Source: Bacteroidales bacterium
Lineage (GTDB): Bacteria > Bacteroidota > Bacteroidia > Bacteroidales > VadinHA17
NCBI GenBank assembly: GCA_025454795.1
Contig: JALONT010000016.1
Coordinates: forward strand, 1 to 64,000
DNA: 64,000 bases
Direction of reading: 5' to 3'
Part shown: piece by piece, positions 13,072-27,055 of the stretch
How positions within the stretch are numbered: position 1 is the stretch's first letter
Layout: each line of letters begins with the position of its first letter
The notes under the pieces: model-generated
The model's database searches: none
What the model saw: only the letters and a program-made list of their open reading frames with translations
What the model was told of the DNA's origin: nothing
Position numbers and translations under genes: made by a program

Positions 13072-15024
13072 TCAGGCTTCCTCCTTTCGTTCAATTCTCC
13101 TGGCAACCAGTTGATTAATGATGATAGGAACCTTTTCAACGATTGTGTTTGTGGAATCAAGGTGAAGGGCTTTATCTTCCGGAATGCTTATATGCCTGAC
13201 AATATCCTGGATGGCCAGAATTAAATTCTCGGTATTTGAAAGTTTAAAATCACGCAGCATTATGCGGTCAAGTACAACAAACTTGAAATCTGCCGGGAAT
13301 CCGTATTTCTTCAGAGAATCGAAACTGCTTTCAAGCTTTATTTCACCTGTCCTTACAAGATCTTCAAGAACCTCCCTGAAATAGAGATTTATTTTCGGAT
13401 CTACCTTGAACCCGATATGAAAGTCGACCCTGATCAGGACTCCTGGTATAATATGATTGACCTTATATTCAAACCTGTGGGGCTCATCTACCCTGTCAAC
13501 ATGAAGGAGCCAGAAAGTATCAGCCCTTTTGGGCTGCTTTTTGAATATTGAGTAAATCACTTTTGACTCCACCTGATCCTGTCGGTTTGCCTTGATAATA
13601 TAAACAAGATTGGAAGCAATCTTCGGAACACTTTTATCTCTTTTCAGATCTTTAAACAGTTCAATGTAGTCTCCAAGATTTATAAATGTAATGTAGCGGT
13701 TCTTGATTTTTCTGGCGAAATACCACCCGAACATTATGAGGAAATATAATGCTGCCATCAGAAGCGTGAACCACCCGCCATATTTGAATTTATGAAGATT
13801 TGCAATAAGAAAGCCTCCTTCAATTGTAAGAAAAAAAAGCATAACCAGAAATGCCAGCCGGTGATCCAAACCGCTTTGAATCAAGTAATATGACAACAGC
13901 AATGTCGTCATTATCATAGTGATAGTAATCGCCAGACCGTATGCTGCTTCCATATTGGCCGATTCCCTGAAGAATATAACCACCAGGCTGCACATTATCC
14001 AGAGAGACCAGTTTACGAAAGGCAGATAAACCTGGCCTTTGACAAATGTCGGATTTAAGATTTTTACCTTAGGCCAGAAGTTAAGTGATACCGCTTCGTT
14101 GATGAGTGTGAACGAACCGCTTATGAGTGCCTGGCTTGCAATTATGGCTGCTGCAGTGGAGATAATTATTCCGGGTAAAAGGAACCATTTCGGCATTATT
14201 GAGAAAAAGGGAATAATTTCTGTCCCGGGTGAATAGTTCATGAGAAGCCATGCCCCCTGACCGAAATAATTGAGTAGCAGTGTTGTTTTTACAAATATCC
14301 AGGAAACCCGAATGTTGCTCCGACCGCAGTGTCCAAGGTCTGAATAGAGAGCCTCAGCTCCTGTGGTACAAAGGAAGACAGCACCTAACAGTATGAAGCC
14401 TCCAGGATATTCGGTCAGGAACCGGATCACATAAACAGGACTCAGAGCACGAAAAATCTCAGGGTAATGGATAACCTGTGTAAATCCCAGGATACCGAGC
14501 ATCAGAAACCAGATAACCATCATGGGGCCAAAAGCAAAACCGACAACATTGGTCCCGAATTGCTGCATGAAAAAAAGCGCGGCAAAAATCACAAGCACAA
14601 TCGGTATAACCGATATATCCGGATTAAACATTCTTAATCCTTCTATTGATGAGGTAACAGTAATGGCAGGTGTTATAACACCATCGGCAAGCAGTGCAGC
14701 ACCTCCAATCATTGTCAGAATTGCTGCCCATGCAGATTTTCTCCTGATAAGGGCAAATAAAGCAAAGATGCCTCCCTCTCCCTTATTATCTGCACGGAGC
14801 GTGATAAAAACATATTTAGTTGTAGTCTGTAAAGTGAGTGTCCAGAAAACGCATGATAAAGCTCCATATATCAGGAGTTCATTAAATTCTTTGGCGCTTC
14901 CGACAATTGCCTTGATTGTATAAAGAGGGCTCGTCCCGATATCACCGTAAACAATACCAAGAGTAACAAGCAGCCCTGCAAATGAGAGTTTCCTGATATC
15001 AAGATGGCTTCCCTGCCCTTTCAT
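13072..15024 (-). CDS. kup: Low-affinity potassium transporter Kup (paralogue 1)
   Basis: Inner-membrane K+ uptake protein of the KUP/HAK/KT family. The family start GIVYGDIGTSPLYT is at about residues 22-35, followed by RADNKGEGGIFAL, GGAALLADGVITPAITVTS and GAVFLCTTGAEALYSDLGH, then a soluble C-terminal domain of about 200 aa. About twelve membrane segments are evident. An upstream in-frame TTG (15069) would add 15 residues that do not align with the neighbouring paralogue, so I chose ATG 15024. It lies downstream of a second kup on the same strand, with strong sequence similarity throughout; probably a tandem duplication. Confidence 0.92.
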   Translation of the reverse strand: MKGQGSHLDIRKLSFAGLLVTLGIVYGDIGTSPLYTIKAIVGSAKEFNELLIYGALSCVFWTLTLQTTTKYVFITLRADNKGEGGIFALFALIRRKSAWAAILTMIGGAALLADGVITPAITVTSSIEGLRMFNPDISVIPIVLVIFAALFFMQQFGTNVVGFAFGPMMVIWFLMLGILGFTQVIHYPEIFRALSPVYVIRFLTEYPGGFILLGAVFLCTTGAEALYSDLGHCGRSNIRVSWIFVKTTLLLNYFGQGAWLLMNYSPGTEIIPFFSIMPKWFLLPGIIISTAAAIIASQALISGSFTLINEAVSLNFWPKVKILNPTFVKGQVYLPFVNWSLWIMCSLVVIFFRESANMEAAYGLAITITMIMTTLLLSYYLIQSGLDHRLAFLVMLFFLTIEGGFLIANLHKFKYGGWFTLLMAALYFLIMFGWYFARKIKNRYITFINLGDYIELFKDLKRDKSVPKIASNLVYIIKANRQDQVESKVIYSIFKKQPKRADTFWLLHVDRVDEPHRFEYKVNHIIPGVLIRVDFHIGFKVDPKINLYFREVLEDLVRTGEIKLESSFDSLKKYGFPADFKFVVLDRIMLRDFKLSNTENLILAIQDIVRHISIPEDKALHLDSTNTIVEKVPIIINQLVARRIERKEEA

Positions 15025-15099
15025 AACCAAATTATCAAATTCAATTCCAGTCCCGTATAAAACCAGCAATGGTAATATCCTTCAAATTCAGAGAGCTTT

Positions 15100-17043
15100 T
15101 CACTGCATCCGCTTGATCCTGTAAGGGACAGGCAGGTCGATAGTGATCGGAACCTGTTCAATTATTGTATTAGTTGAATCCAGATTGAGTGTCCTTATGT
15201 CCGTAATGCTGAGTTTTCTCACAACACCGTTAAGAGCCAGTATAAAATTCTCCCAGTTTGAAAGCGTAAAATCACGTGACATTATTCTATCGATAAGTAT
15301 AAACTTAAAATCACCCTCCAAATCATGTTTTCTGAGAGAATCATAACTGCTGTTCAGCTTAATCTCCCCTGAATCAACAAGATCCTCAAGAACCTCTTTG
15401 AAATAAAGGTTAATCTTTGGCTCTACTTTAAAGCCTATACGGAAATCAATTCTTATAAGTATTCCGGGAATTATCTGTGTAACCTGGTAATCGAACCTAT
15501 TTGGTTCAGTTACCTTATCGACGTGAAGTAACCAGTAGGTATCAGCCCTTTTAGGCTGTTTGTGAAAGATTGAATAAATTACCTTCGACTCAACCTGGTC
15601 GTGCCTGTTGGCACGGATAATATAAACAAGATTAGTCGCAAGTCGCGGAACAGACTCATCTTTACTCAGATCCCTGAAAAGATCGAGGTATTTATCAAGA
15701 TCGGCAAATGTAATATACCTGTTCTTTATTTTTCTGCCGAAATACCATCCAAACATTACAAGGAAATAGAGTGATGCAAGCAGTAATGTAAGCCATCCTC
15801 CGTACTTAAATTTGTAAAGGTTAGCTATCAGAAAACTTCCCTCTAAGGTCAGATAGGTCATGAATAGCAATAATACAAGCCTGTGGTTCAGTCCTTTCTG
15901 AAGCAGGAAGTAGGAAAGGAGAAGTGTGGTCATTATCTCCGCAATTGTAATTGCAAGCCCATAAGCCGCATTCATATTTGACGACTCTTTAAATGAGAAT
16001 ACAACCAGGCTGCATGCTATCCAGAGAAACCAGTTTACAAACGGTATATAAACCTGGCCTCTCACATAAGTAGGGTGTAAAATCCTGACTTTGGGCCAGA
16101 AGTTGAGAGACACGGCTTCACCTATCAGTGTAAATGATCCGCTGATAATTGCCTGGCTGGCTATGATGGCTGCTGCCGTTGCAAGTCCTACACCGGGAAT
16201 CAGGAACCATTTCGGCATCATTTCAAAAAACGGGTTAATATAAGTACCCGGTTCAATATTCATCATAAGCCAGGCTCCCTGCCCAAAATAGTTCAGCAGA
16301 AGGGCTATTTTGACGAATATCCATGAAACCCTGATGTTTGCTCTCCCACAATGTCCGAGGTCGGCATACAGTGCCTCAGCTCCCGTTGTCGCAAGAAAGA
16401 CAGCTCCCAATAAAATAAAACCCCCGGGATATTCGGTAAGGAACCGGTAAGCATATACAGGATTAAGGGCGTTCAGAATATCGGGATATAATATTAACTG
16501 GGAAAATCCCAGAACTGCAAGTGTAAGAAACCAGATCACCATTATTGGTCCGAAGGAGCTCCCCACAAAATTGGTCCCGAACTGTTGAATAAAGAAGAGA
16601 GCACCGAGAATTATAAGTACAATCGGAACTACCGGAATATCAGGATTAAACAACTTTAACCCTTCAATTGAAGATGTAACTGTGATTGATGGAGAAATTA
16701 CCCCATCTGCTAAAAGTGCGGCTCCGCCAACCATTGTCAGGATAGCGGCCCATGACGATTTTTCCTTAATGAGGGCATAGAGGGCGAAGATGCCACCTTC
16801 ACCGTTATTGTCAGCCCGCAATGTAATTATGATATACTTTATTGTTGTGGATAGGGTTAAAGTCCAGAAAATACAGGAGAGGGCTCCATAAATTAAGAGC
16901 TGGTTGAAATTTTCTGCACCCCCGGCAATAATAGCCCTCATGGTATACAGAGGACTGGTGCCAAGATCACCGAATACTATTCCGAGGGTCACAAGTGCAC
17001 CAGCCAGAGAGAGCTTTTTGATATCCGGATGTCGCTGAGCCAT
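15100..17043 (-). CDS. kup: Low-affinity potassium transporter Kup (paralogue 2)
   Basis: 647-aa K+ transporter with the same architecture as its neighbour: GIVFGDLGTSPLYT at about residues 20-33, RADNNGEGGIFALYAL, LLADGVISPSITVTSS, LATTGAEALYADLGH and a cytosolic C-terminal domain with SKVIYSIFHKQPKRADTYW. It is the promoter-proximal copy: TAACTTTG lies just upstream, and the second kup follows after 75 nt. The pair sits 1.7 kb from the kdp locus, giving three K+ uptake systems in 14 kb. Whether the paralogues differ in affinity or in H+ coupling cannot be read here. Confidence 0.93.
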   Translation of the reverse strand: MAQRHPDIKKLSLAGALVTLGIVFGDLGTSPLYTMRAIIAGGAENFNQLLIYGALSCIFWTLTLSTTIKYIIITLRADNNGEGGIFALYALIKEKSSWAAILTMVGGAALLADGVISPSITVTSSIEGLKLFNPDIPVVPIVLIILGALFFIQQFGTNFVGSSFGPIMVIWFLTLAVLGFSQLILYPDILNALNPVYAYRFLTEYPGGFILLGAVFLATTGAEALYADLGHCGRANIRVSWIFVKIALLLNYFGQGAWLMMNIEPGTYINPFFEMMPKWFLIPGVGLATAAAIIASQAIISGSFTLIGEAVSLNFWPKVRILHPTYVRGQVYIPFVNWFLWIACSLVVFSFKESSNMNAAYGLAITIAEIMTTLLLSYFLLQKGLNHRLVLLLFMTYLTLEGSFLIANLYKFKYGGWLTLLLASLYFLVMFGWYFGRKIKNRYITFADLDKYLDLFRDLSKDESVPRLATNLVYIIRANRHDQVESKVIYSIFHKQPKRADTYWLLHVDKVTEPNRFDYQVTQIIPGILIRIDFRIGFKVEPKINLYFKEVLEDLVDSGEIKLNSSYDSLRKHDLEGDFKFILIDRIMSRDFTLSNWENFILALNGVVRKLSITDIRTLNLDSTNTIIEQVPITIDLPVPYRIKRMQ

Positions 17044-17067: not shown

Positions 17068-17141
17068 TAAATTTAGATACACATTATGATTTTAGCCAAT
17101 AAGATTATATTTGTGAATTCTGAGTGAGCATATACTTAAAT

Positions 17142-18305
17142 ATGGATAGTAAACAAAAAACCGGCATGCACAGGATTCTTTTAAACTCCGTTTTTCTCCT
17201 CATTATCGCAGTGCCTGGCTCAGGACAGGTTCAAATTCCCTGCGAACAGAAGGTTTCATTTCTTTTCATAGGTGATATTATGGGCCATGATGAACAGATA
17301 TGGTCAGCTGAAAACAGGGAGACTCGTACATATAATTATGATGATGTATTTACTTTTATAAAACCCCTGATCTCAGAAGCCGATATTGCAATAGCAAATT
17401 TTGAAGTAACCCTGGCAGGTCTTCCTTATAAGGGATACCCTCAGTTCAGCTCGCCTGCAGCTCTCGCAGATGCCTGCCGGAATGCGGGAATCGATTACCT
17501 GGTAACTGCGAATAACCATTCAGCCGATCGTGGAAAGAACGGTATAATTGGTACTATAAACCGGCTCGACAGCCTTGGTATCCCGCATACCGGGACATTT
17601 ACTGATGAGGCTTCAAGAGACTCTCTTCAACCATTGATGATAAGAAAGAACGGTATTTCAGCTGCACTGCTGAATTATACTTATGGTACAAACGGTATCA
17701 AAGTACCAGAACCTGTAATTGTAAATATGCTGGACAAGAACCTGATAACCAGGGATATCGAAAAAGCCTGGAAAATGAATCCGGATATTATCATCCTGTT
17801 CCTTCACTGGGGTACAGAATATGATACTATACCATCAGATAGCCAGGAGGAGCTGGCAAGCTATTTTTTCTCAAAAGGTGTCGGTCTGATCATAGGTTCA
17901 CATCCTCATGTGCTTCAGAAAATGATCTGGTACAAAGAAGATCCGGTTTTTAATAGTAAAGCGGTAATTTACTCCCTTGGCAATTTTATTACAAATCAAA
18001 GAAAGCCAAAGACCGATGGGGGATCAATGGTCAGGATTGAACTGACAAAGAAAGAAAAGAGTGTCTCTGTTTCAAAAGCAGGATTCTACCTTACCTGGGT
18101 TTATACCCCGATAATCAGGTACAGGAAGAAGTTTTATATACTTCCATGTTCTGAATTTGAGAACAGGGCTGATTTTTTTACTCATCCTAGTGATTATGTC
18201 CAGATGAAGAAATTCGTAAATGATTCAAGAAGACTGCTTTATGAACAGAATATTAATTTCAGCGAGTATATCTTTAATGCAAATAATTGGCTGTTAAATA
18301 ATTAA
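17142..18305 (+). CDS. CapA-family (PGA_cap) metallophosphatase-like exported protein
   Basis: Exported protein of the CapA/PgsA family, related to calcineurin-like phosphoesterases and linked in other species to poly-gamma-glutamate capsule anchoring. An N-terminal signal (LLNSVFLLIIAVPGSGQ) is followed by the family motifs FIGDIMGHD, IANFEVTLAG, TANNHSADRG, LHWGTEYD, GSHPHVLQ and YSLGNFI, in order; these carry the metal-binding Asp, Asn and His residues. A GTG at 17124 is possible, but ATG 17142 gives a cleaner signal peptide. No capB or capC is present, so capsule synthesis is not implied. Function beyond the fold is unknown. Confidence 0.85.
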   Translation: MDSKQKTGMHRILLNSVFLLIIAVPGSGQVQIPCEQKVSFLFIGDIMGHDEQIWSAENRETRTYNYDDVFTFIKPLISEADIAIANFEVTLAGLPYKGYPQFSSPAALADACRNAGIDYLVTANNHSADRGKNGIIGTINRLDSLGIPHTGTFTDEASRDSLQPLMIRKNGISAALLNYTYGTNGIKVPEPVIVNMLDKNLITRDIEKAWKMNPDIIILFLHWGTEYDTIPSDSQEELASYFFSKGVGLIIGSHPHVLQKMIWYKEDPVFNSKAVIYSLGNFITNQRKPKTDGGSMVRIELTKKEKSVSVSKAGFYLTWVYTPIIRYRKKFYILPCSEFENRADFFTHPSDYVQMKKFVNDSRRLLYEQNINFSEYIFNANNWLLNN

Positions 18306-18364
18306 CAACCTATCTGGAATGCTGCTGCAATATTTCTCATCTATCCATCAGCCTATATTATCTT

Positions 18365-18432
18365 CTTTATAAAATCTTTATACAAGCAGCTCTAAATTTT
18401 ATAATTCCCTTATAAAGGGGGCTTTACCTTTG
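18365..18432 (+). promoter_or_regulatory. kdpF control region: CTTTATA direct repeat and -7 element
   Basis: CTTTATAAAATCTTTATAC (18365-18383) holds two CTTTATA half-sites spaced 11 bp start to start, the geometry used by OmpR-family regulators such as KdpE. A third related box (CCCTTATAAA) begins 42 nt after the start of the first. TACCTTTG at 18425-18432 fits the -7 consensus and is 19 nt before the kdpF start. The same blocks occur at identical spacing upstream of kdpA (26718-26785, minus strand), which strongly suggests co-regulation by KdpE. Confidence 0.75.
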
Positions 18433-18451
18433 CTTAGTAAATAACACAAAG

Positions 18452-18607
18452 ATGAAACTGATTATTTTTTCCTGGTTTGAAAAAATACCTGAAACTATAG
18501 TAAACTTTACAGTTTCAGGTAATGCTGGTTATCTGGTTGGTATTATTATTTCGGTAATAATTCTAGCCTACCTCCTCTATTCTTTATTAAAACCTGAAAA
18601 ATTTTAA
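18452..18607 (+). CDS. kdpF: KdpF-like small subunit of the K+-transporting ATPase
   Basis: 51-aa membrane miniprotein. The C-terminal half (about residues 27-51) is one hydrophobic segment ending in AYLLYSLLKPEKF, the KdpF signature (Y/L-L-Y-x-L-x-x-P-E-x-F). KdpF binds and stabilises the KdpABC complex in the inner membrane. It normally precedes kdpA in the same operon. Here it is on the opposite strand, beyond the 3' end of kdpE, with its own promoter that copies the kdpA one. The N-terminal 26 residues, with FEKIPETIVNF, are longer than in the E. coli subunit. Confidence 0.85.
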   Translation: MKLIIFSWFEKIPETIVNFTVSGNAGYLVGIIISVIILAYLLYSLLKPEKF

Positions 18608-18747: not shown

Positions 18748-19431
18748 CTAACTACCAAACCGATAACCTATTCCCGATTCAGTGTTTAATAATTTAGGCC
18801 TGGCAGGGTCGTCTTCAACCTTTTTGCGTAGCTGAGCTATGAATACCCGTAAGTACTGAGTTTGTTCAATATAACCCATCCCCCAAACTTCTTTTAGAAT
18901 ATATTGATGTGTTAGTACCCGACCTTCATTTTTGGCTAATAACGATAATAGTGAGAATTCGGTCGATGTGAGTTTTAATAATTCGCTATTCTTGCGTACA
19001 ATATGATTGGTTAAATCGATAGATAATGAACCAAATTCTAATATTGGTTTGTCTGAAATGTTCTGAACTTGCCTGCTGGCCACACGGATACGAGCCAATA
19101 ATTCTCCAGTGCGAAAGGGTTTTGTAAGATAATCGTTAGCACCATTATCCAGTGCATGAATTATGTCTTCTTCCGAATTTCTGACAGAGAGAATTATAAT
19201 AGGTTTTAGATACCATTCTCTTAATTTTTTCAATATTTCAATACCATCTATATCAGGCAATCCTAAATCAAGGATTACAAGTACCGGGTGATTTGTAGCG
19301 GCAGCAATAAGTCCATCCTTTCCCGTTGCAGCTTCAGAAATCTTATATCCGTTTGATGAGAGTGTTATTTCAAGCAAACGCCGAATTTGCACTTCATCGT
19401 CTATAATCAATATCGTTTCGGGTAAATTCAT
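18748..19431 (-). CDS. kdpE: KdpE response regulator (OmpR family)
   Basis: 227-aa DNA-binding response regulator. The receiver domain (residues 1-120) shows the acidic pair IIDDEVQI, the phosphoacceptor Asp about 55 in VILDLGLPDIDG and Lys about 104 in YLTKPF. The C-terminal winged helix (about 130-227) contains LTSTEFSLLSLLAKNEGRVLTH and GIGYRF, as in OmpR/PhoB regulators. It would be phosphorylated by the adjacent KdpD sensor and would act on the CTTTATA boxes upstream of kdpA and kdpF. It starts 20 nt after kdpD, at the end of the kdpABC-x-DE operon. Confidence 0.93.
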   Translation of the reverse strand: MNLPETILIIDDEVQIRRLLEITLSSNGYKISEAATGKDGLIAAATNHPVLVILDLGLPDIDGIEILKKLREWYLKPIIILSVRNSEEDIIHALDNGANDYLTKPFRTGELLARIRVASRQVQNISDKPILEFGSLSIDLTNHIVRKNSELLKLTSTEFSLLSLLAKNEGRVLTHQYILKEVWGMGYIEQTQYLRVFIAQLRKKVEDDPARPKLLNTESGIGYRFGS

Positions 19432-19451: not shown

Positions 19452-22118
19452 TTAAAAATCTATATGTAGTATCTCAGTTGGTATCTTAATTGTGAATATT
19501 GCACCACCATTTTGCCTGTTTCTCACCGTTATTGTCCCTTCATGTGCTTCAACAAAACCTTTTGCAATTGATAATCCCAGCCCTGTGCCACCGGCTTTTG
19601 ATCCTTCTACCCTGTAAAACTTATTAAATATAAAGGATATTTCCTTTCCTGGGAAACCCGGACCTCTGTCCATAACCTGTAAAGTCATTATTCCATTTTC
19701 ATAGAATGCTTTAACTCTCAGATTTATTGAAATAGAAGCATACTGTGTGGCATTATAAATCAGGTTGTAGAGTACCTGTTCTATTAATCCGAAGTCGATC
19801 TTTACTAAAGGCATGTCATCAGGAATAACAACATGAAGGCGGAATGGTTTAAGTTCATCCTGCAGGTTTTCAGAGACTTTATTTATCAGATCGTGAATAT
19901 CGCACCAATCAAGCCGGGGAGTAATCCGGCCGCTTTCGAGCCTTGACATATTCAATAGATTATCGATAAGACGGTTTAATCTTTTAGATGCCTTGAATAT
20001 TTCTTGAGAGAGCTCTTTACGTATTTCCTCTGGATGTAGCGATGTAAGCAGAGAGTCGGAAGCGCCCATAATTGTTGCAACAGGAATCCGCAGCTCATGC
20101 GATATGGAGTTAAAAAGCGTTTTGTACAGCTTGTCGGATTCGTTTAGCAAAAAAGCCTGTTTAGCCATATCGCGTAGATATTCCCTTTCGAACTTTCCTG
20201 AGATTTGGGAAATAAATGCATCCCAAAATTGCTCTTCACCCAGAGTGAATACATTTGTCTGTTGAATTGCAATTACTCCCAGGTTCATCTGATTTCCTTT
20301 TAAAGGGTAAAATGTATATTTACTGGATGGTAAGGTATCAGTATGTTTCCCTGCTTTTGCAGAGTGCTGGAATGTCCACGCTGCAACGCTCACATCGTTT
20401 TTTGACAGAATTATACCTGAATCAATCTGATTGGGGCAATCTAGTTGGTTTGTGTCATTTCTAAGTAATATCCGACACCGAAGATCAAAATATTTCTTAA
20501 TATCGTTTTTAGCAATATTAATAACCTCTTCAAAACCAGAAGCAGTGGACAACTCTCTGGTAAGCTGATACAGGGCATTTGTACGTTCCTCACGTCTTCT
20601 GATTTTCATCTCCTGTCTCTTTATCCTTGATGTAAGTACTCCGCTTAATAACGCAATGATGAAAAACATTATCAACATTAGCATATCTTCCGGCTTATCG
20701 ACATGTAATGTATAGGGCGGTGGAATAAAAAAGAAATCCCAGATAAGAGCGCTCAATGTTGCGGACACAAGAATGGGCCCTGTTCCAAAGAAAAATGCAA
20801 GTGTTGAAACAACAAATAATAAAGCAAATGAAACAACCTGATAACCAATAAATTCTTTAATTGAAAAACAAGCAAGTGCGGTTATTACAACAATCAGTGT
20901 AGCGGCAAAGTATTGCCGGATATTTGAAGTGAAAGATGGTAAAGAGACTTTTTCCTTAAACTTATCTGTTGACTTAATATCGGAACCCAGTATGTATACA
21001 TCAATATTGCCGCTATAACGGATAAGCCGGTTCACGAAGTTACCAAGTCGCAACAGGGTCAACAGATTCCTTACGCGAGGTTTACCGATGATTATATGTG
21101 TAATATTTTCTTTTTGAGCAAAATCTACAATTGCTTTTACCATATCGTTATTGGTAACAAACCGAAACTTAATACCTAGCTGCCTGGAAAGGTTGATATT
21201 TTTATTTAATTGTTCACTTTCTTTGGGGGTAAGCTTATATGAAGTCTCCACATAGACAGCCTGGAGATCGGCACCCATTGTATAAGAAAGATTTTTAGCC
21301 CAGCGGAGTAATTTTGCAGACTGCTGGGTATGACTAACAGCCACTAAAAGATGTAATCCAGATTTCCATGGACCTTTTATTCGCTTTAGCTGCATGTATT
21401 CGTGAAGCTGTTTGTCCACACGGTCGGCAACTATACGTAATGCCATTTCACGTAAAGCTGTTATATTTCCTTTACGGAAAAAACTCCCGATGGCTTCTTT
21501 CGACCTTTCGGGTGTATATACTTTGCCGTCTGAGAGTCTCTGCAACAGTTCATCCGGAGTCAGGTCAATAACCTCGATTTCATCGGCATTTTCAAAGATT
21601 TCATCGGGGAGTGTTTCCCGGACAATTATTCCAGTAATCTGCGATACTGTATCTGAACGGCTTTCCAGATGTTGAACGTTAAGTGTGGTATATACGCTTA
21701 TTCCATTATCAAGGATTTCCAAAACATCCTGACATCTTTTTGTATGACGGCTACCCGGGGAATTAGAATGAGCGAGTTCATCAACCAGAACAACCCTGGG
21801 TTTTCGGGCTATAATTGCATCCAAATCCATTTCCTGTACAGTAGTAGATTTGTACTGGTAGGTTTTGCGGGGTATCAATTCAAAGCCCTCTGCCAATTCA
21901 GCAGTTTCCTTTCGGTTGTGGGTTTCTACATAGCCAATGACAATATCGTTCCCTTTCAATTTCTCGGCTTGTGCTGTTTGTAGCATGGTGTAAGTTTTAC
22001 CAACGCCAGCACACATACCAAAGAATATTTTCAGCTTACCTCGTTTGCTTCTTTCTTCCTCAAACTTTAAAGAAGCTAAAAGTTCATCGGGATCCGGGCG
22101 ATTGTCAATTATGTCCAT
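19452..22118 (-). CDS. kdpD: KdpD sensor histidine kinase
   Basis: 888-aa sensor of K+ limitation or turgor. The N-terminal KdpD domain has a Walker A motif GMCAGVGKT (about 34-42). It is followed by a universal-stress-like domain (about 250-370), four closely spaced membrane segments (about 400-500), a GAF-like region and a histidine kinase core. The H box is ISHELRIPVATIMG with His near 675, then the N box and GTGLGLSIAKGFVEAHEG. Domain order and length match full KdpD. It starts 6 nt after a small coiled-coil gene, which itself overlaps kdpC, so the whole operon appears translationally linked. Confidence 0.95.
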   Translation of the reverse strand: MDIIDNRPDPDELLASLKFEEERSKRGKLKIFFGMCAGVGKTYTMLQTAQAEKLKGNDIVIGYVETHNRKETAELAEGFELIPRKTYQYKSTTVQEMDLDAIIARKPRVVLVDELAHSNSPGSRHTKRCQDVLEILDNGISVYTTLNVQHLESRSDTVSQITGIIVRETLPDEIFENADEIEVIDLTPDELLQRLSDGKVYTPERSKEAIGSFFRKGNITALREMALRIVADRVDKQLHEYMQLKRIKGPWKSGLHLLVAVSHTQQSAKLLRWAKNLSYTMGADLQAVYVETSYKLTPKESEQLNKNINLSRQLGIKFRFVTNNDMVKAIVDFAQKENITHIIIGKPRVRNLLTLLRLGNFVNRLIRYSGNIDVYILGSDIKSTDKFKEKVSLPSFTSNIRQYFAATLIVVITALACFSIKEFIGYQVVSFALLFVVSTLAFFFGTGPILVSATLSALIWDFFFIPPPYTLHVDKPEDMLMLIMFFIIALLSGVLTSRIKRQEMKIRRREERTNALYQLTRELSTASGFEEVINIAKNDIKKYFDLRCRILLRNDTNQLDCPNQIDSGIILSKNDVSVAAWTFQHSAKAGKHTDTLPSSKYTFYPLKGNQMNLGVIAIQQTNVFTLGEEQFWDAFISQISGKFEREYLRDMAKQAFLLNESDKLYKTLFNSISHELRIPVATIMGASDSLLTSLHPEEIRKELSQEIFKASKRLNRLIDNLLNMSRLESGRITPRLDWCDIHDLINKVSENLQDELKPFRLHVVIPDDMPLVKIDFGLIEQVLYNLIYNATQYASISINLRVKAFYENGIMTLQVMDRGPGFPGKEISFIFNKFYRVEGSKAGGTGLGLSIAKGFVEAHEGTITVRNRQNGGAIFTIKIPTEILHIDF

Positions 22119-22124
22119 ACAATA

Positions 22125-22310
22125 CTACTTCTTTTCAAATCTGGAAATTAGCTCTTTGGCTTGTTCTTCTATACTTTTAATTCGGAACAGTAAGTTTTTC
22201 AACTCCTGAATATCGTTAAGATTATGATCTTTACCCGGATCTTTATGTAAAGTTATAGACATTTTCTCCATGTTTTTATTTAATTTGTCCGCCATTTCAT
22301 TAAAAGTCAA
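22125..22310 (-). CDS. 61-aa coiled-coil protein encoded between kdpC and kdpD
   Basis: Small charged, hydrophilic protein with a heptad-like pattern in its second half (LKNLLFRIKSIEEQAKELISRFEKK) and no membrane segment. Its ATG overlaps the kdpC stop in an ATGA arrangement (22307-22310) and it ends 6 nt before kdpD. That is a typical sign of translational coupling and a good reason to treat it as real. I recognise no family. A role as cytosolic accessory to KdpC or KdpD is possible, but this is inferred from position only. Confidence 0.7.
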   Translation of the reverse strand: MTFNEMADKLNKNMEKMSITLHKDPGKDHNLNDIQELKNLLFRIKSIEEQAKELISRFEKK

Positions 22311-22891
22311 TGAAAGTTCTGGTCAAGTTTATTAAGTTCAAGGTTTAAAATCAATACATTAACTCTTTCTTCGCCAAGAATTAAAAACTGAGGTGTTTCG
22401 GTAAGGGTTTTTACGCTTTGAACCAAATTTTGTTTTTGGATAGCATTAAAATTTCGGGCTTTAGCAACCCGGGCCACTTGCAATAAAGCCGCTTGCTTAG
22501 AAATATGCGGATCGAGGCCGCTTGCTGATGCAAAAAGCATTTCGGAGGGAATTACAGTAAGACTATCCAATTGATTAAAAACAATGAATTGTTTTTTACG
22601 TTCGGCGACAAGATTTTTCAGTTTAAGATTCGTTAATCCATAATTTGAACCTCCTGAAGGCAAAGGATTATATGAAATTGCGGATGGCCTGGATGTGAAA
22701 TAAATTATAGAATCAAATTGCTGGCCAATAAGGCTGCTTCCAATTGTTTGATTATCATTTACAATTAAGCTGCCGTTTGCTTTTGCAGGAAATGTTACCT
22801 GAGCAATTCCGGTAACTAAAAGCGGGTAAACAATTCCTGTAAGCATTGTAAAAAACAGGAATATTTTCAAGGATATTATGATTGTTTTCAT
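22307..22891 (-). CDS. kdpC: Potassium-transporting ATPase subunit C
   Basis: 194-aa single-span membrane subunit of the KdpFABC pump. The N-terminal helix (about residues 6-30, IFLFFTMLTGIVYPLLVTGI) matches KdpC, followed by GSLIVNDNQTIGSSLIGQQF, FTSRPSAISYNPLPSGGSNYG and SASGLDPHIS, all standard motifs. The periplasmic C-terminal domain is complete. It follows kdpB after 14 nt and overlaps the next small gene by 4 nt. Confidence 0.95.
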   Translation of the reverse strand: MKTIIISLKIFLFFTMLTGIVYPLLVTGIAQVTFPAKANGSLIVNDNQTIGSSLIGQQFDSIIYFTSRPSAISYNPLPSGGSNYGLTNLKLKNLVAERKKQFIVFNQLDSLTVIPSEMLFASASGLDPHISKQAALLQVARVAKARNFNAIQKQNLVQSVKTLTETPQFLILGEERVNVLILNLELNKLDQNFH

Positions 22892-22905: not shown

Positions 22906-24993
22906 TTACAGGTTAATTATAATATCAATAAGCTTAATTCCAATAAATGGGGCAAGAATGCCACCTAAGCCAAAAACAAGCAGGTTACGGGTCAATGAAA
23001 CAGTAGCTGAAACGGGTCTGTAGCGAACACCTTTTAACGCCAGCGGCACCAATAGAATTATGATAATTGCATTAAAAATTACTGCACTCAGAATAGCACT
23101 TTGCGGTGAACCCAGGTGCATAATATTTAGGACAGAAAGAGGGCCAATTCCGTTTGTACCTGAATAAAGTGAAATTGCAATAGCCGGAATAATGGCAAAA
23201 TATTTAGCTACATCATTAGCAATACTAAATGTTGTGAGTGAGCCACGGGTCATAAGTAATTGTTTGCCTACTCCCACAACCTCAATAAGTTTTGTAGGAT
23301 TACTGTCGAGATCAACCATATTTCCAGCCTCACGGGCTGCCTGGGTACCTGAGTTCATGGCAATGCCAATATCGGCTTGTGCAAGGGCGGGGGCATCGTT
23401 GGTGCCATCGCCGATCATGCCTACCAAATGCCCGTTTGCCTGTTCTTCACGGATACGGCGCAATTTATCTTCGGGCGTTGCTTCAGCCATAAAATCGTCA
23501 ACCCCAGCTTCTGCTGCAATAGCAGCGGCGGTTAAAGGATTGTCCCCTGTAATCATTACTGTTTTAATACCCATTTTACGTAATTCGCTAAACCGTTGTT
23601 TAATGCCGCCTTTTACAATGTCTTTAAGGTGAATAACCCCTAAAACTTTTTTATCTTCTGCTACAACCAAAGGTGTTGCCCCCTGTCGTGCCAATCCGGA
23701 AACAATATTTTGAATTTCCTGAGGATAAAAACCATTATTGTTTTGTATAAATGTGCGAATGGCTTCTGATGATCCTTTGCGGACATGATGTATTATGCCA
23801 TCATTAGTTTTATAATCAACACCGCTCATTCTCGATTGTGCCGTAAAAGGGATAAACGTTGCATTAAGCCGGAGGACTTCACGGCCACGAATTTTAAACT
23901 TTTCTTTAGCCAGAATAACAATAGAACGGCCTTCAGGTGTTTCGTCCGATAATGATGAAAGCTGGGCTTCATGGGCAAGTTCTTCAATAGTTACACCTTC
24001 AGCCGGGATAAAATCGGTAGCCATGCGGTTGCCTAAGGTAATTGTTCCTGTTTTATCGAGCAACAGCACATCAACATCTCCGGCTGCTTCAATGGCACGA
24101 CCACTGGTAGCAATAACATTTCGCTGAATGAGCCTGTCCATGCCACTTATACCAATTGCACTCAACAAGGCACCAATAGTTGTGGGAATAAGACAAACCA
24201 ACAACGCAATTAATATGGGAATTGTTAAGTTTTGTGACATTGGTAACCCCGAAGCCTTAAGGCTGTACCCAAAGTATGCAGGAAGTGTAACCACTACCAG
24301 AAGAAAAATAATGGATAAACCCGAAAGAAGTATAGACAGTGCTATTTCATTAGGTGTTTTATGCCGTTTCGCCCCTTCAACCAGTGCTATCATACGGTCG
24401 ATAAAGGTGTTACCGGGCTCAGCTATAATATTGATCAAAATCCAGTCGCTTATTACTTTTGTCCCTCCCGTAACTGCTGAACGGTCTCCTCCGCTTTCGC
24501 GAATAACGGGAGCTGATTCGCCTGTTATTGCCGATTCGTCAACACTTGCAATACCTTCAATGACCTCTCCATCTGAAGGAATTGCTTCTCCTGCTTTGCA
24601 AAGGACTTTGTCGCCTTTTCTAAGCTCGGTTGCAATTACCGGAACTTCCTGTTTGCCAACAATCTTACGAGCTATGGTTTGGGTACGGTTTTTTCGCAAA
24701 TTATCAGCCTGGGCTTTTCCCCTGCCTTCGGCAATGGCCTCAGAGAAATTGGCAAACAACACAGTAAACCATAGCCATATAGCTATCTGAAGGTTGAAAG
24801 ATGAAAGGTTGCCCTGAAAAATACCTGCAAAGACTACGATTGTAGTAAGAAGAGAACCGATTGCCACAATGAAAATGACAGGGTTCTTAATCAGTAATAC
24901 AGGATTTAATTTGATTACACTGTCTTTTACAGCAAGTAACAATATATTTCTATTGAAAAGGCTTGTATTTTGTTTTGTACTCATTTTGTTCAA
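22906..24993 (-). CDS. kdpB: Potassium-transporting ATPase ATP-binding subunit B
   Basis: 695-aa P-type ATPase, the energising subunit of Kdp. Visible motifs are the actuator TGESAPV (about residue 155), the phosphorylation motif [13 protein letters not shown] with Asp near 313, the nucleotide-binding FTAQSRMSG and KGSSEA, and the hinge [19 protein letters not shown]. Seven or so membrane helices are predicted. It starts 3 nt after the kdpA stop. Arginine codons here are largely CGN, unlike the AGG/AGA usage of flanking genes. Confidence 0.96.
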
Positions 24994-24996
24994 AAA

Positions 24997-26688
24997 TTAA
25001 AAGGTTATTCCATAGTTCATTAGCAAATGATCCATAAGTGGACCTAGAGATAAAGCCGGGAAATGGGTTAATCCGCCTACAGTAAGTATAACAGCGATTA
25101 ACAAACCGATAAACAGCCAATTGTCGGTACGGAATGTGCCTGCCGAAAGCGGGGTAATCTTCTTTTTATTCATGTTTCCGGCTATTGCAAGTACCGGAAT
25201 AATAACTCCAAAGCGTCCAATCAGCATTCCGAATCCAAGAGTCAGATTATAAAACACCGAATTTGCATTTAACCCGGCAAAGGCGCTGCCATTGTTTCCT
25301 GCAGCAGAACTGTAAGCGTAGAGTATTTCTGAAAACCCGTGCGGACCTGCATTATTCAGGCTCGATAAACCATAACTACTTACCGAAGCCCATGCCGATA
25401 AAATCTGTATTACTAAATTTGGTGCAAGAACGGCTATTATGGCCATTTGAACTTCAAAAGTCTCAATTTTTTTGCCAAGATATTCAGGTGTGCGTCCAAC
25501 CATCAACCCGGCAATAAAAACCGTGATGATTATAAATATTACCATTCCATATAATCCTGCACCCACACCGCCAAAAATAATTTCACCCAGCATAATGTTT
25601 ATCATGGCCATCATACCTGCAATTGGTGAAAGGCTGTCATGCATTGCATTTACAGAACCATTTGAGGCTGACGTTGTGGCGGCTGACCATAGAATACTGT
25701 TGGTGATACCGAAACGTGTTTCCTTGCCTTCCATCAGGTGTAAATGCCCAAAAATAGAATTGGCTGAATACTCATCATATAATGAAATAATTAGTCCTGC
25801 AATAAATAAAATCAACATAGCAGTAAAAACTGTCCAACCCTGGCGTGTTGAATCGACCATTTTGCCATACGTGTAAGTTAATGCAACCGGGATAAGCAAT
25901 ATGGCCACCATTTGGAGGAAATTACTTAATGGGGTCGGATTCTCGAAAGGGTGTGAACTATTGGAATTAAAGAATCCTCCCCCGTTTGTACCCATTTGCT
26001 TGATGACAATCTGAGAAGCTGCCGGCCCCATCGGAATTACCTGCTGTGCACCTTGTAATGTCTGAACCGTTTCATAAGTTTTGAAATTCTGTACAACTCC
26101 CTGACCAACTAACACAATTGCTAATAGAATTGAAAGTGGTAAAAGCACATACAGGGTTGAGCGTGTGATATCCGTCCAAAAATTACCAAGCCCTTCGGTT
26201 GTTTTCCGTGAAATTCCTCTGATTAGTGCTAATAAAACTGCTATTCCTGTTGCAGCACTTACAAAGTTCTGGACGGTAAGGCCAATCATTTGCACAAAAT
26301 AACTTAGTGTTGTTTCCCCGGCATATCCCTGCCAATTGGTGTTGGTCATAAAACTTACTGCAGTATTGAAAGCAGAATGCCATGATACATTTGAAAGGTT
26401 TGCAGGATTCATTGGCAAATATGCCTGAAAGAGTTGGATCAAAAACACAAAAACAAATCCAATTAAATTAAACATAAGCAAACCGAAGGTATAAGACTTC
26501 CAGTTTGTTTCTTCATCGGGGTTTATTCCGGAGAATTTATATGTCAGTTTTTCGAGCCAGCCGAAAACAGGTAATATGAAATGCTTATTCCCTGTAAATA
26601 CCTTGTACATGTAGTTGCCCAGAATGGGTGTAAGGCCAATTAATACTGTAATGAATAGTATTATCTGAATTAAATCTTGAGTTGTCAT
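24997..26688 (-). CDS. kdpA: Potassium-transporting ATPase K+-binding subunit A
   Basis: 563-aa channel-like subunit that selects and translocates K+. The four pore-loop regions of the SKT superfamily can be traced: TNTNWQGYAGE (about 117-127), MGTNGGGFFNSNSSHPFENP (about 232-251), ATTSASNGSVNAM (about 345) and SAAGNNGSAFAG (about 467). About ten membrane helices are present. It is the first gene of the minus-strand operon. KdpF, which usually precedes it, is absent at this position; the nearest upstream gene is a divergent metal-transporter-like gene. Confidence 0.96.
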   Translation of the reverse strand: MTTQDLIQIILFITVLIGLTPILGNYMYKVFTGNKHFILPVFGWLEKLTYKFSGINPDEETNWKSYTFGLLMFNLIGFVFVFLIQLFQAYLPMNPANLSNVSWHSAFNTAVSFMTNTNWQGYAGETTLSYFVQMIGLTVQNFVSAATGIAVLLALIRGISRKTTEGLGNFWTDITRSTLYVLLPLSILLAIVLVGQGVVQNFKTYETVQTLQGAQQVIPMGPAASQIVIKQMGTNGGGFFNSNSSHPFENPTPLSNFLQMVAILLIPVALTYTYGKMVDSTRQGWTVFTAMLILFIAGLIISLYDEYSANSIFGHLHLMEGKETRFGITNSILWSAATTSASNGSVNAMHDSLSPIAGMMAMINIMLGEIIFGGVGAGLYGMVIFIIITVFIAGLMVGRTPEYLGKKIETFEVQMAIIAVLAPNLVIQILSAWASVSSYGLSSLNNAGPHGFSEILYAYSSAAGNNGSAFAGLNANSVFYNLTLGFGMLIGRFGVIIPVLAIAGNMNKKKITPLSAGTFRTDNWLFIGLLIAVILTVGGLTHFPALSLGPLMDHLLMNYGITF

Positions 26689-26717
26689 ATTGTGAATTCA
26701 ATATTTAAAATGTTATA

Positions 26718-26785
26718 CAAAATTCATATAGAATTTATAAAGGTTTTGTAATAATTAGCCATAGGTGTATAAAGACTTTATAAAG
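26718..26785 (-). promoter_or_regulatory. kdpA control region: CTTTATA direct repeat and -7-like element
   Basis: Read on the minus strand, CTTTATAAAGTCTTTATAC (26785-26767) differs by one base from the site before kdpF. A further box (CCTTTATAAA) begins 42 nt after the start of the first, and GAATTTTG (26725-26718) aligns with the kdpF -7 element. The operator-to-start distance is 97 nt here and 87 nt at kdpF. An upstream CATCTTTATAAAG overlap extends the repeat. Probable KdpE-binding site. Confidence 0.75.
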
Positions 26786-27055
26786 ATGCTACAAACCATC
26801 CATAAAGTTTCTGAGGGGCAAGATTGCAACTATTCCCGCATACTTTGGTTGAAGCGTAAGCATTGTGCGGTTTGCGGGACCTGCTAAAATGGGCGATTAG
26901 AAATTTAATAGTCTTTTGAAACCTGAATATGGTGAATAGCTGTACAAGATTTTAATCACGCTCCATTAATTATTTCAACTTTCCAGTCACTATTCTCATT
27001 TTTTATAAATATAATTGCATAATAAATATCAGGTAATCACAGATGAATTCTTCTT
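26786..27055. other. Non-coding gap between kdpA and the divergent metal-transporter-like gene
   Basis: Together with the kdpA leader this is a 367-nt stretch without a gene. Apart from the CTTTATA region I see no clear hairpin terminator, RNA gene or repeat. A segment near 26846-26900 (GCGTAAGCATTGTGCGG onward) is more GC-rich than its AT-rich surroundings and could be a remnant of something, but I cannot identify it. Confidence 0.5.

Follow-up and report, generated by a model that had tools for sequence, protein, structure and literature searches.

The window, by which we mean the whole analysed stretch of 64,000 nucleotides, contains a kdp locus divided between the two strands. Pfam and NCBIfam profiles placed kdpA, kdpB, kdpC, kdpD and kdpE on the minus strand, and kdpF on the plus strand, convergent with kdpE. 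This agrees with an earlier note made on this DNA, with the addition that a small gene, here called X, intervenes between kdpF and kdpE. The genes of the locus were the following, the flanks being compared with those of G041, a genome of the same genus:

17124..18305, plus strand: PGA_cap-type gene (Pfam), left flank in common with G041
18452..18607, plus strand: kdpF, 51 aa, above the cut-offs of Pfam PF09604 and NCBIfam TIGR02115, sole KdpF match in the genome
18611..18718, plus strand: X, 35 aa, single helix, beginning 3 bp past the kdpF stop
18748..19431, minus strand: kdpE (Pfam/NCBIfam), convergent with kdpF-X
19452..22118, minus strand: kdpD (Pfam KdpD, DUF4118, HisKA, HATPase_c)
22119..22306, minus strand: remnant of gene x, reduced to the final ~58 codons of a membrane protein with a HAMP domain
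22307..22891, minus strand: kdpC (Pfam/NCBIfam)
22906..24993, minus strand: kdpB (NCBIfam TIGR01497)
24997..26688, minus strand: kdpA (Pfam/NCBIfam), first gene of the inverted segment
27056..27766, plus strand: DsbD_2-type gene (Pfam), right flank in common with G041

Two tandem KUP-type K+ transporters adjoin the kdp locus (13072-15069 and 15100-17043). The gene 'x' that had been placed between kdpC and kdpD does correspond to a reading frame, but only to the end of a gene that is whole in G041 (297 aa; L133, 7889-8782), where it gave a HAMP match of 25.3 bits (cut-off 25); the remnant was recognised by comparing the frames by eye. The 61-aa ORF at 22125-22310 was rejected as a gene, being a remnant of gene x. 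Gaps of like length between kdpC and kdpD occurred in L053, L055, L058 and other loci.

The proposal that the 51-aa ORF encodes KdpF was borne out by both curated profiles, with 28.6 bits against PF09604 (cut-off 21.2; residues 29-51) and 32.3 bits against TIGR02115 (cut-off 26.85). The 28 C-terminal residues (24-51), ending in SLLKPEKF, aligned with residues 2-29 of E. coli KdpF in a comparison with PDB sequences (E 0.046; KdpFABC entries 6hra and 5mrw), and a simple hydropathy scale revealed one hydrophobic stretch (residues 28-46, mean hydropathy 2.68), as expected for a single transmembrane helix. The protein carries an N-terminal extension of ~23 residues with respect to E. coli KdpF, close to the ~20 residues of the earlier note; KdpF relatives of the family carry such extensions too, so that this long N-terminus is ordinary and not a peculiarity of the window. 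As in E. coli, a KdpE-type promoter precedes kdpF, but the gene of the window lies on the opposite strand from kdpA and forms a separate unit. That kdpA lacks an upstream kdpF was also correct: none was seen in its upstream sequence, and a second genuine kdpF elsewhere, which would have spoken against the earlier reading, was not found in a profile search of the whole genome (86 contigs totalling 3.29 Mb, 99% complete).

KdpF was matched in 23 of the 117 genomes of the family and in 37 of the 393 genomes of the order sample, and KdpA in 28 and 47 genomes (46 over the cut-off in the order sample), respectively; the two samples overlap in some genomes, including that of the window. The pooled set comprised 60 kdpF genes from 59 genomes and 72 kdpA rows, five kdpA fragments being left out. 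In 59 of the 60 cases kdpF was upstream of kdpA on the same strand, the profile matches being 37-1991 bp apart. The window was the sole exception, kdpF not being the first gene of a kdpFABC operon on the strand of kdpA. The arrangement of the window is that of a known system, real, and unique in the samples examined. A literature search covering titles, the starts of abstracts and some passages yielded no recognised description of a separated kdpF or of X. Genes of ~254-261 aa were present between kdpF and kdpA in L063, L064, L081, and L111. Twelve genomes of the pooled samples had kdpA without a KdpF match. The kdpA gene was truncated in three of them (G037, G042, and G110); inspection of the other nine by eye revealed a KdpF-like ORF missed by the search in G176, G216, G315, and G327, X in place of KdpF in G074 and G076, and neither of them before kdpA in G209 and G310, whilst in G174 the contig ends at this place.

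Two predicted KdpE-type promoters and a hairpin within kdpF

Three regulatory features were predicted in the locus:

18364..18438, plus strand: upF, KdpE-type promoter of kdpF-X, with half-sites TTTATA at 18366-18371 and 18377-18382 and TACCTTTG at 18425-18432
26712..26786, minus strand: upA, KdpE-type promoter of kdpA, with half-sites TTTATA at 26784-26779 and 26773-26768
18486..18521, minus strand: terminator-like hairpin, 14 pairs followed by TTTTTT, inside the N-terminal part of kdpF

The sequence upstream of kdpF reads TCTTTATAAAATCTTTATAC and that upstream of kdpA TCTTTATAAAGTCTTTATAC; we take the octamer at 18425-18432 to be the -7 element of this phylum. The pattern TCTTTATAANNTNTTTATAC had nine sites with two or fewer mismatches in the whole genome of 3.29 Mb (six in the reversed control), and upF and upA were the only sites without mismatch. 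The genes start 88 bp (kdpF) and 98 bp (kdpA) after the start of this box. Relatives supplied 54 distinct kdpF loci whose upstream sequence was long enough (two further loci were too short). Of these 54, 38 had the box within three mismatches and 16 lacked it in the stretch searched; TTTG occurred near the expected place in 33 of the 38 boxed loci and in exact register in 25. A 75-bp matrix built from the promoters of 25 relatives, G041 included and the window excluded, gave scores of 49.3 for upF and 54.4 for upA, the next best score in the 64-kb window being -11.3. The training sites scored 49.6-95.2, and the maximum in the reversed sequence of 81 loci (2,571,192 positions) was 5.0. The two sites found by the matrix in 64 kb are those before kdpF and before kdpA, and the inference of the earlier note that kdpF is still regulated with the operon is supported: at the level of sequence, these predicted promoters are good evidence for co-regulation of kdpF and kdpA. 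The matrix also provides a means to map the KdpE regulon of the group.

Passages of PMC3264566 give the E. coli KdpE half-sites as TTTATA and TTTACA with 5-bp spacing, and both upF and upA follow this rule of the KdpE regulon, with two 6-bp half-sites and a 5-bp spacer. According to the same passages, the E. coli kdpFABC promoter has like half-sites, and their inferred distance from the transcription start is similar; the window differs in having two copies that face each other, each within a conserved 75-bp element ending in the TTTG box. These two promoters are the arms (18359-18416 and 26734-26791) of a 58-nt inverted repeat (74%), the longest among those listed for the locus. At 57 of 95 identical positions between upF and upA, a recent copy of upF was rejected as the origin of upA. 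The best matches of upA were the kdpF promoters of G063 and G078 (67/95 each) and those of upF the promoters of L060 and G041 (60/95 each), upA sharing 46/95 positions with the G041 promoter.

The hairpin within kdpF had a fold of -18.5 kcal/mol (z -4.79), and none of 200 shuffles was as good. Between 18300 and 19000 two terminator-like sites were found (mean of shuffles, 0.2), the other one being at 18405-18421 on the plus strand, inside upF; none was present in that interval 3' of X on the plus strand. The stop codons of X and kdpE are 29 bp apart, and given this distance and the lack of a terminator-like site after X, the two transcripts may overlap. It is possible that the leftward kdpABC-DE transcript ends at the hairpin, past X and part of kdpF. 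No hairpin was seen by eye at a like place in the kdpF of G041.

Comparison with G041 and origin of the arrangement

The kdp locus of G041 lies on one contig of 19.4 kb, in the order PGAcap>kdpF>X>kdpA>kdpB>kdpC>x>kdpD>kdpE>dsbD>DUF4290>EPSP synthase, with two KUP genes beyond PGAcap. The window presents the same flanks and the same order, with kdpA to kdpE reversed between X and dsbD; kdpF-X still adjoins PGAcap and keeps a promoter of the G041 type. About 1.8 kb present between dsbD and DUF4290 in G041 is absent from the window. Beside dsbD the window retains a stretch in common with the kdpE-dsbD spacer of G041:

26991..27019, plus strand: ~28 nt from the old right-hand neighbourhood of kdpE

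The local alignment of this stretch with the spacer scored 46, as compared with a mean of 20.3 and a maximum of 31 in 300 shuffles. The flanks shared with G041, together with this spacer remnant, indicate that kdpABCDE turned in place while kdpF and X stayed. The earlier note had kdpF displaced with its promoter by a rearrangement; a rearrangement is supported, but kdpF as the moved gene was rejected in view of the synteny with G041.

The kdp proteins differed in their nearest relatives. KdpA, KdpB, and KdpC were nearest those of G041 among 46, 49, and 51 other loci, respectively, and the window and G041 were sisters in the KdpA tree (100/93). KdpD was nearest that of L064 (91%; 88% with G041) and KdpE that of G063 (89%), the KdpE of G041 being almost the most distant of 83 rows (71%); as the loci were picked by likeness to the KdpE of the window, this last comparison is biased. 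With the same sampling bias, the long branch in the KdpE tree corresponds to G041 and not to the window, and a foreign origin of the window kdpE was rejected. The closeness of KdpD to L064 and the distant KdpE of G041 mean that the ancestral locus is only partly recovered. The KdpE of G041 (L133, 4516-5187) is a long-branch outlier though its KdpA to KdpD are near those of the window, and a gene replacement is likely in that genome.

Most probably, then, the kdpABC-(x)-DE segment turned round where it stood, with PGAcap-kdpF-X on one side and dsbD on the other; each half has its own KdpE-type promoter, and KdpF would act in trans. The locus would have been split as this segment flipped between fixed flanks. 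Under K+ limitation, KdpE would activate both units, so that kdpF-X and kdpABC-DE are transcribed towards each other; the kdpABC-DE transcript would perhaps stop at the hairpin inside kdpF, and KdpF made from the kdpF-X transcript would join and stabilise KdpABC in trans. A role of E. coli KdpF as a stabiliser of the complex in vitro is proposed in passages of PMC3618439.

The main rival to the inversion is replacement, in which a kdp operon from outside, carrying its own promoter but no kdpF, would have landed reversed and ousted the resident kdpABCDE, the resident kdpF-X being left behind. Since upA did not arise by recent copying of upF, and its likeness is to promoters from other lineages (those of G063 and G078, ahead of upF and that of G041), such an event is possible, and the affinities of KdpE to G063 and of KdpD to L064 fit it as well. 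However, KdpA, KdpB, and KdpC remain nearest to G041, with which KdpA pairs; no clear identity switch was seen along kdpA; and the long branch in the KdpE tree, within its sampling by KdpE likeness, is that of G041. We consider replacement unlikely.

An artefact of assembly, with contigs wrongly joined and kdpF really located before kdpA, is less credible still, and we give it very little weight. Both junctions are known from one contig of one draft genome (86 contigs), and the inverted repeat formed by the promoters could be invoked in its favour. Nevertheless, both junctions differ from G041, so that one false join would not suffice, the second and distinct promoter of kdpA has no counterpart in the 22 bp between X and kdpA of G041, and a long near-perfect inverted repeat was absent among the repeats listed. 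It is also improbable, to a degree only slightly smaller, that kdpF is a stranded relic, open as a frame but outside the pump, with X, or nothing, doing the job of KdpF. The dispensability of KdpF for Kdp function in E. coli (passages of PMC3618439), the presence of X without a KdpF match before kdpA in G074 and G076, and the hairpin that a portion of kdpF forms when read on the opposite strand all favour such a relic; the frame, however, has kept the conserved KdpF positions, its core differs from that of G041 by 7/5/16 substitutions by codon position, and a strong predicted promoter stands in register before it.

With the inversion as the preferred reading, the locus would be a case in which the gene of the smallest subunit was parted from its operon because the rest of the operon inverted, the promoter type being kept by both halves. 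The role of KdpF in vivo could be asked in such a setting, where kdpF and kdpABC are natural separate units.

X and other small genes of K+ uptake loci

Among the findings of the window, X is the more interesting lead. The earlier note had overlooked this second small gene directly 3' of kdpF. In G041, X occupies the same place, 22 bp from kdpA, with 26 of 35 residues identical; the differences fell 8/5/12 by codon position (dN 0.18, dS 0.82). No match to X was found in Pfam or NCBIfam, and its assignment to a known family of either was rejected. A diverged KdpF was rejected too (KdpF model, E 0.93 for 9 sequences; profile-profile probability, 4%). Relatives of X were located directly 5' of kdpA in G074 and G076 (74 and 69% identical, respectively), with no KdpF match before kdpA and with matrix scores of 45.3 and 49.2 for the sites before them. 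In G122 and G234, kdpF is followed by an X-like ORF (32 and 39% identical).

A model built on these six sequences (window, G041, G074, G076, G122, and G234) had matches below 1e-4 beyond its members in contig C85 of the window's own genome (1.6e-8), G071 (2.4e-8), and G064 (3.2e-5); any match was obtained in 7 of 117 and 5 of 334 genomes, those in G014, G339, and G143 being weak and taken as chance. The relatives in C85 and G071 have a TrkH gene on one side and, on the other, a DUF4118 histidine kinase accompanied by a KdpE-like regulator; that of G064 lies 5' of a DUF4118 kinase. The matrix scored 31.8 before trkH and 30.4 before X in C85, 36.1 and 18.3 in G071, and only 0.4 before X in G064. 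In C85 (21000-25534; L191), TrkH, the X relative, the DUF4118 kinase, and a KdpE paralogue stand in a row, which with its two KdpE-type promoter-like sites is a second K+ module of the genome. None of the 18 TrkH-kinase-regulator loci in the KdpE-similarity set contained X, and its link with TrkH is thus not general.

X stands behind KdpE-type promoters and next to DUF4118 kinases, a position that suggests a role as a transporter subunit or in feedback on the kinase. MgrB is a small feedback membrane protein that works with PhoQ. X would resemble it as a small single-helix protein, presumably induced by a response regulator, that may touch the kinase, the comparison being one of analogy only. 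Extra genes before kdpA are also found in the Clostridium acetobutylicum operon kdpZYABCXDE (passages of PMC5401905), which is likened to the present locus by gene order alone. The X proteins suggest that K+ homeostasis has a layer of small proteins for which neither Pfam nor NCBIfam offers a model.

A small gene with a likeness to X, here called X2 (GHLFKLDKYYE type), was found between kdpF and kdpA in G063, G084, G088, G185, G244, G467, G468, L056, and L103, and before kdpF in G333 and G413. The X2 model, built from six of those nine, had matches in 9 of 117 and 8 of 393 genomes. X2 follows a KimA-like gene in G035, G037, G059, and, weakly, G042; the label KimA rests on likeness to 6s3k for the partial protein of G059 (E 4.3e-23) and on likeness to G059 for the other genomes, Pfam giving no match with the partial proteins of G059 and G037. 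It also lies beside DUF4118 kinase/KdpE-like genes in G074 and G084:C278. Matrix sites before X2 scored 60.9 in G059, 61.9 in G035, 60.7 in G037, and 50.3 in G084:C278, but only -2.2 in G042, and in G074 a site of 26.0 sits behind X2. Three loci (L196, L197, and L198) have an X2-type gene behind a strong KdpE-type site and after a KimA-like gene; the next gene in G035 is a BBP2 porin gene, and a similar one was seen by eye in G059. No K+-uptake or kinase/KdpE-like neighbour was seen for the matches in G310, G398, and G071:C42. The latter two were weak and taken as chance; that of G310:C1 (2.5e-10) was left unexplained, lying at a distance from kdpA and next to a gene that had no Pfam match.

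X and X2 may share an ancestor, a candidate relationship on the basis of an hhalign probability of 34%, a pairwise E of 4.3e-4, and an E of 0.45 for X with the X2 model (9 sequences). Tentatively, and with the odds somewhat against it, X and X2 could form a family, so far without a description, of single-helix microproteins under the control of KdpE and common to unrelated K+ uptake systems of the order (Kdp, TrkH, and KimA-like), acting as a substitute for KdpF and as a transporter subunit or in feedback on KdpD/DUF4118 kinases; the inversion would then have freed kdpF-X as a unit of the regulon, with kdpF doubling as a terminator. Another small ORF lies between kdpF and kdpA in G031, and the gene just before kdpF in G248, G176, and G327 (L160, L170, and L175) encodes yet another small membrane protein, with WF(D/E/N)K(I/V) at its C-terminus.
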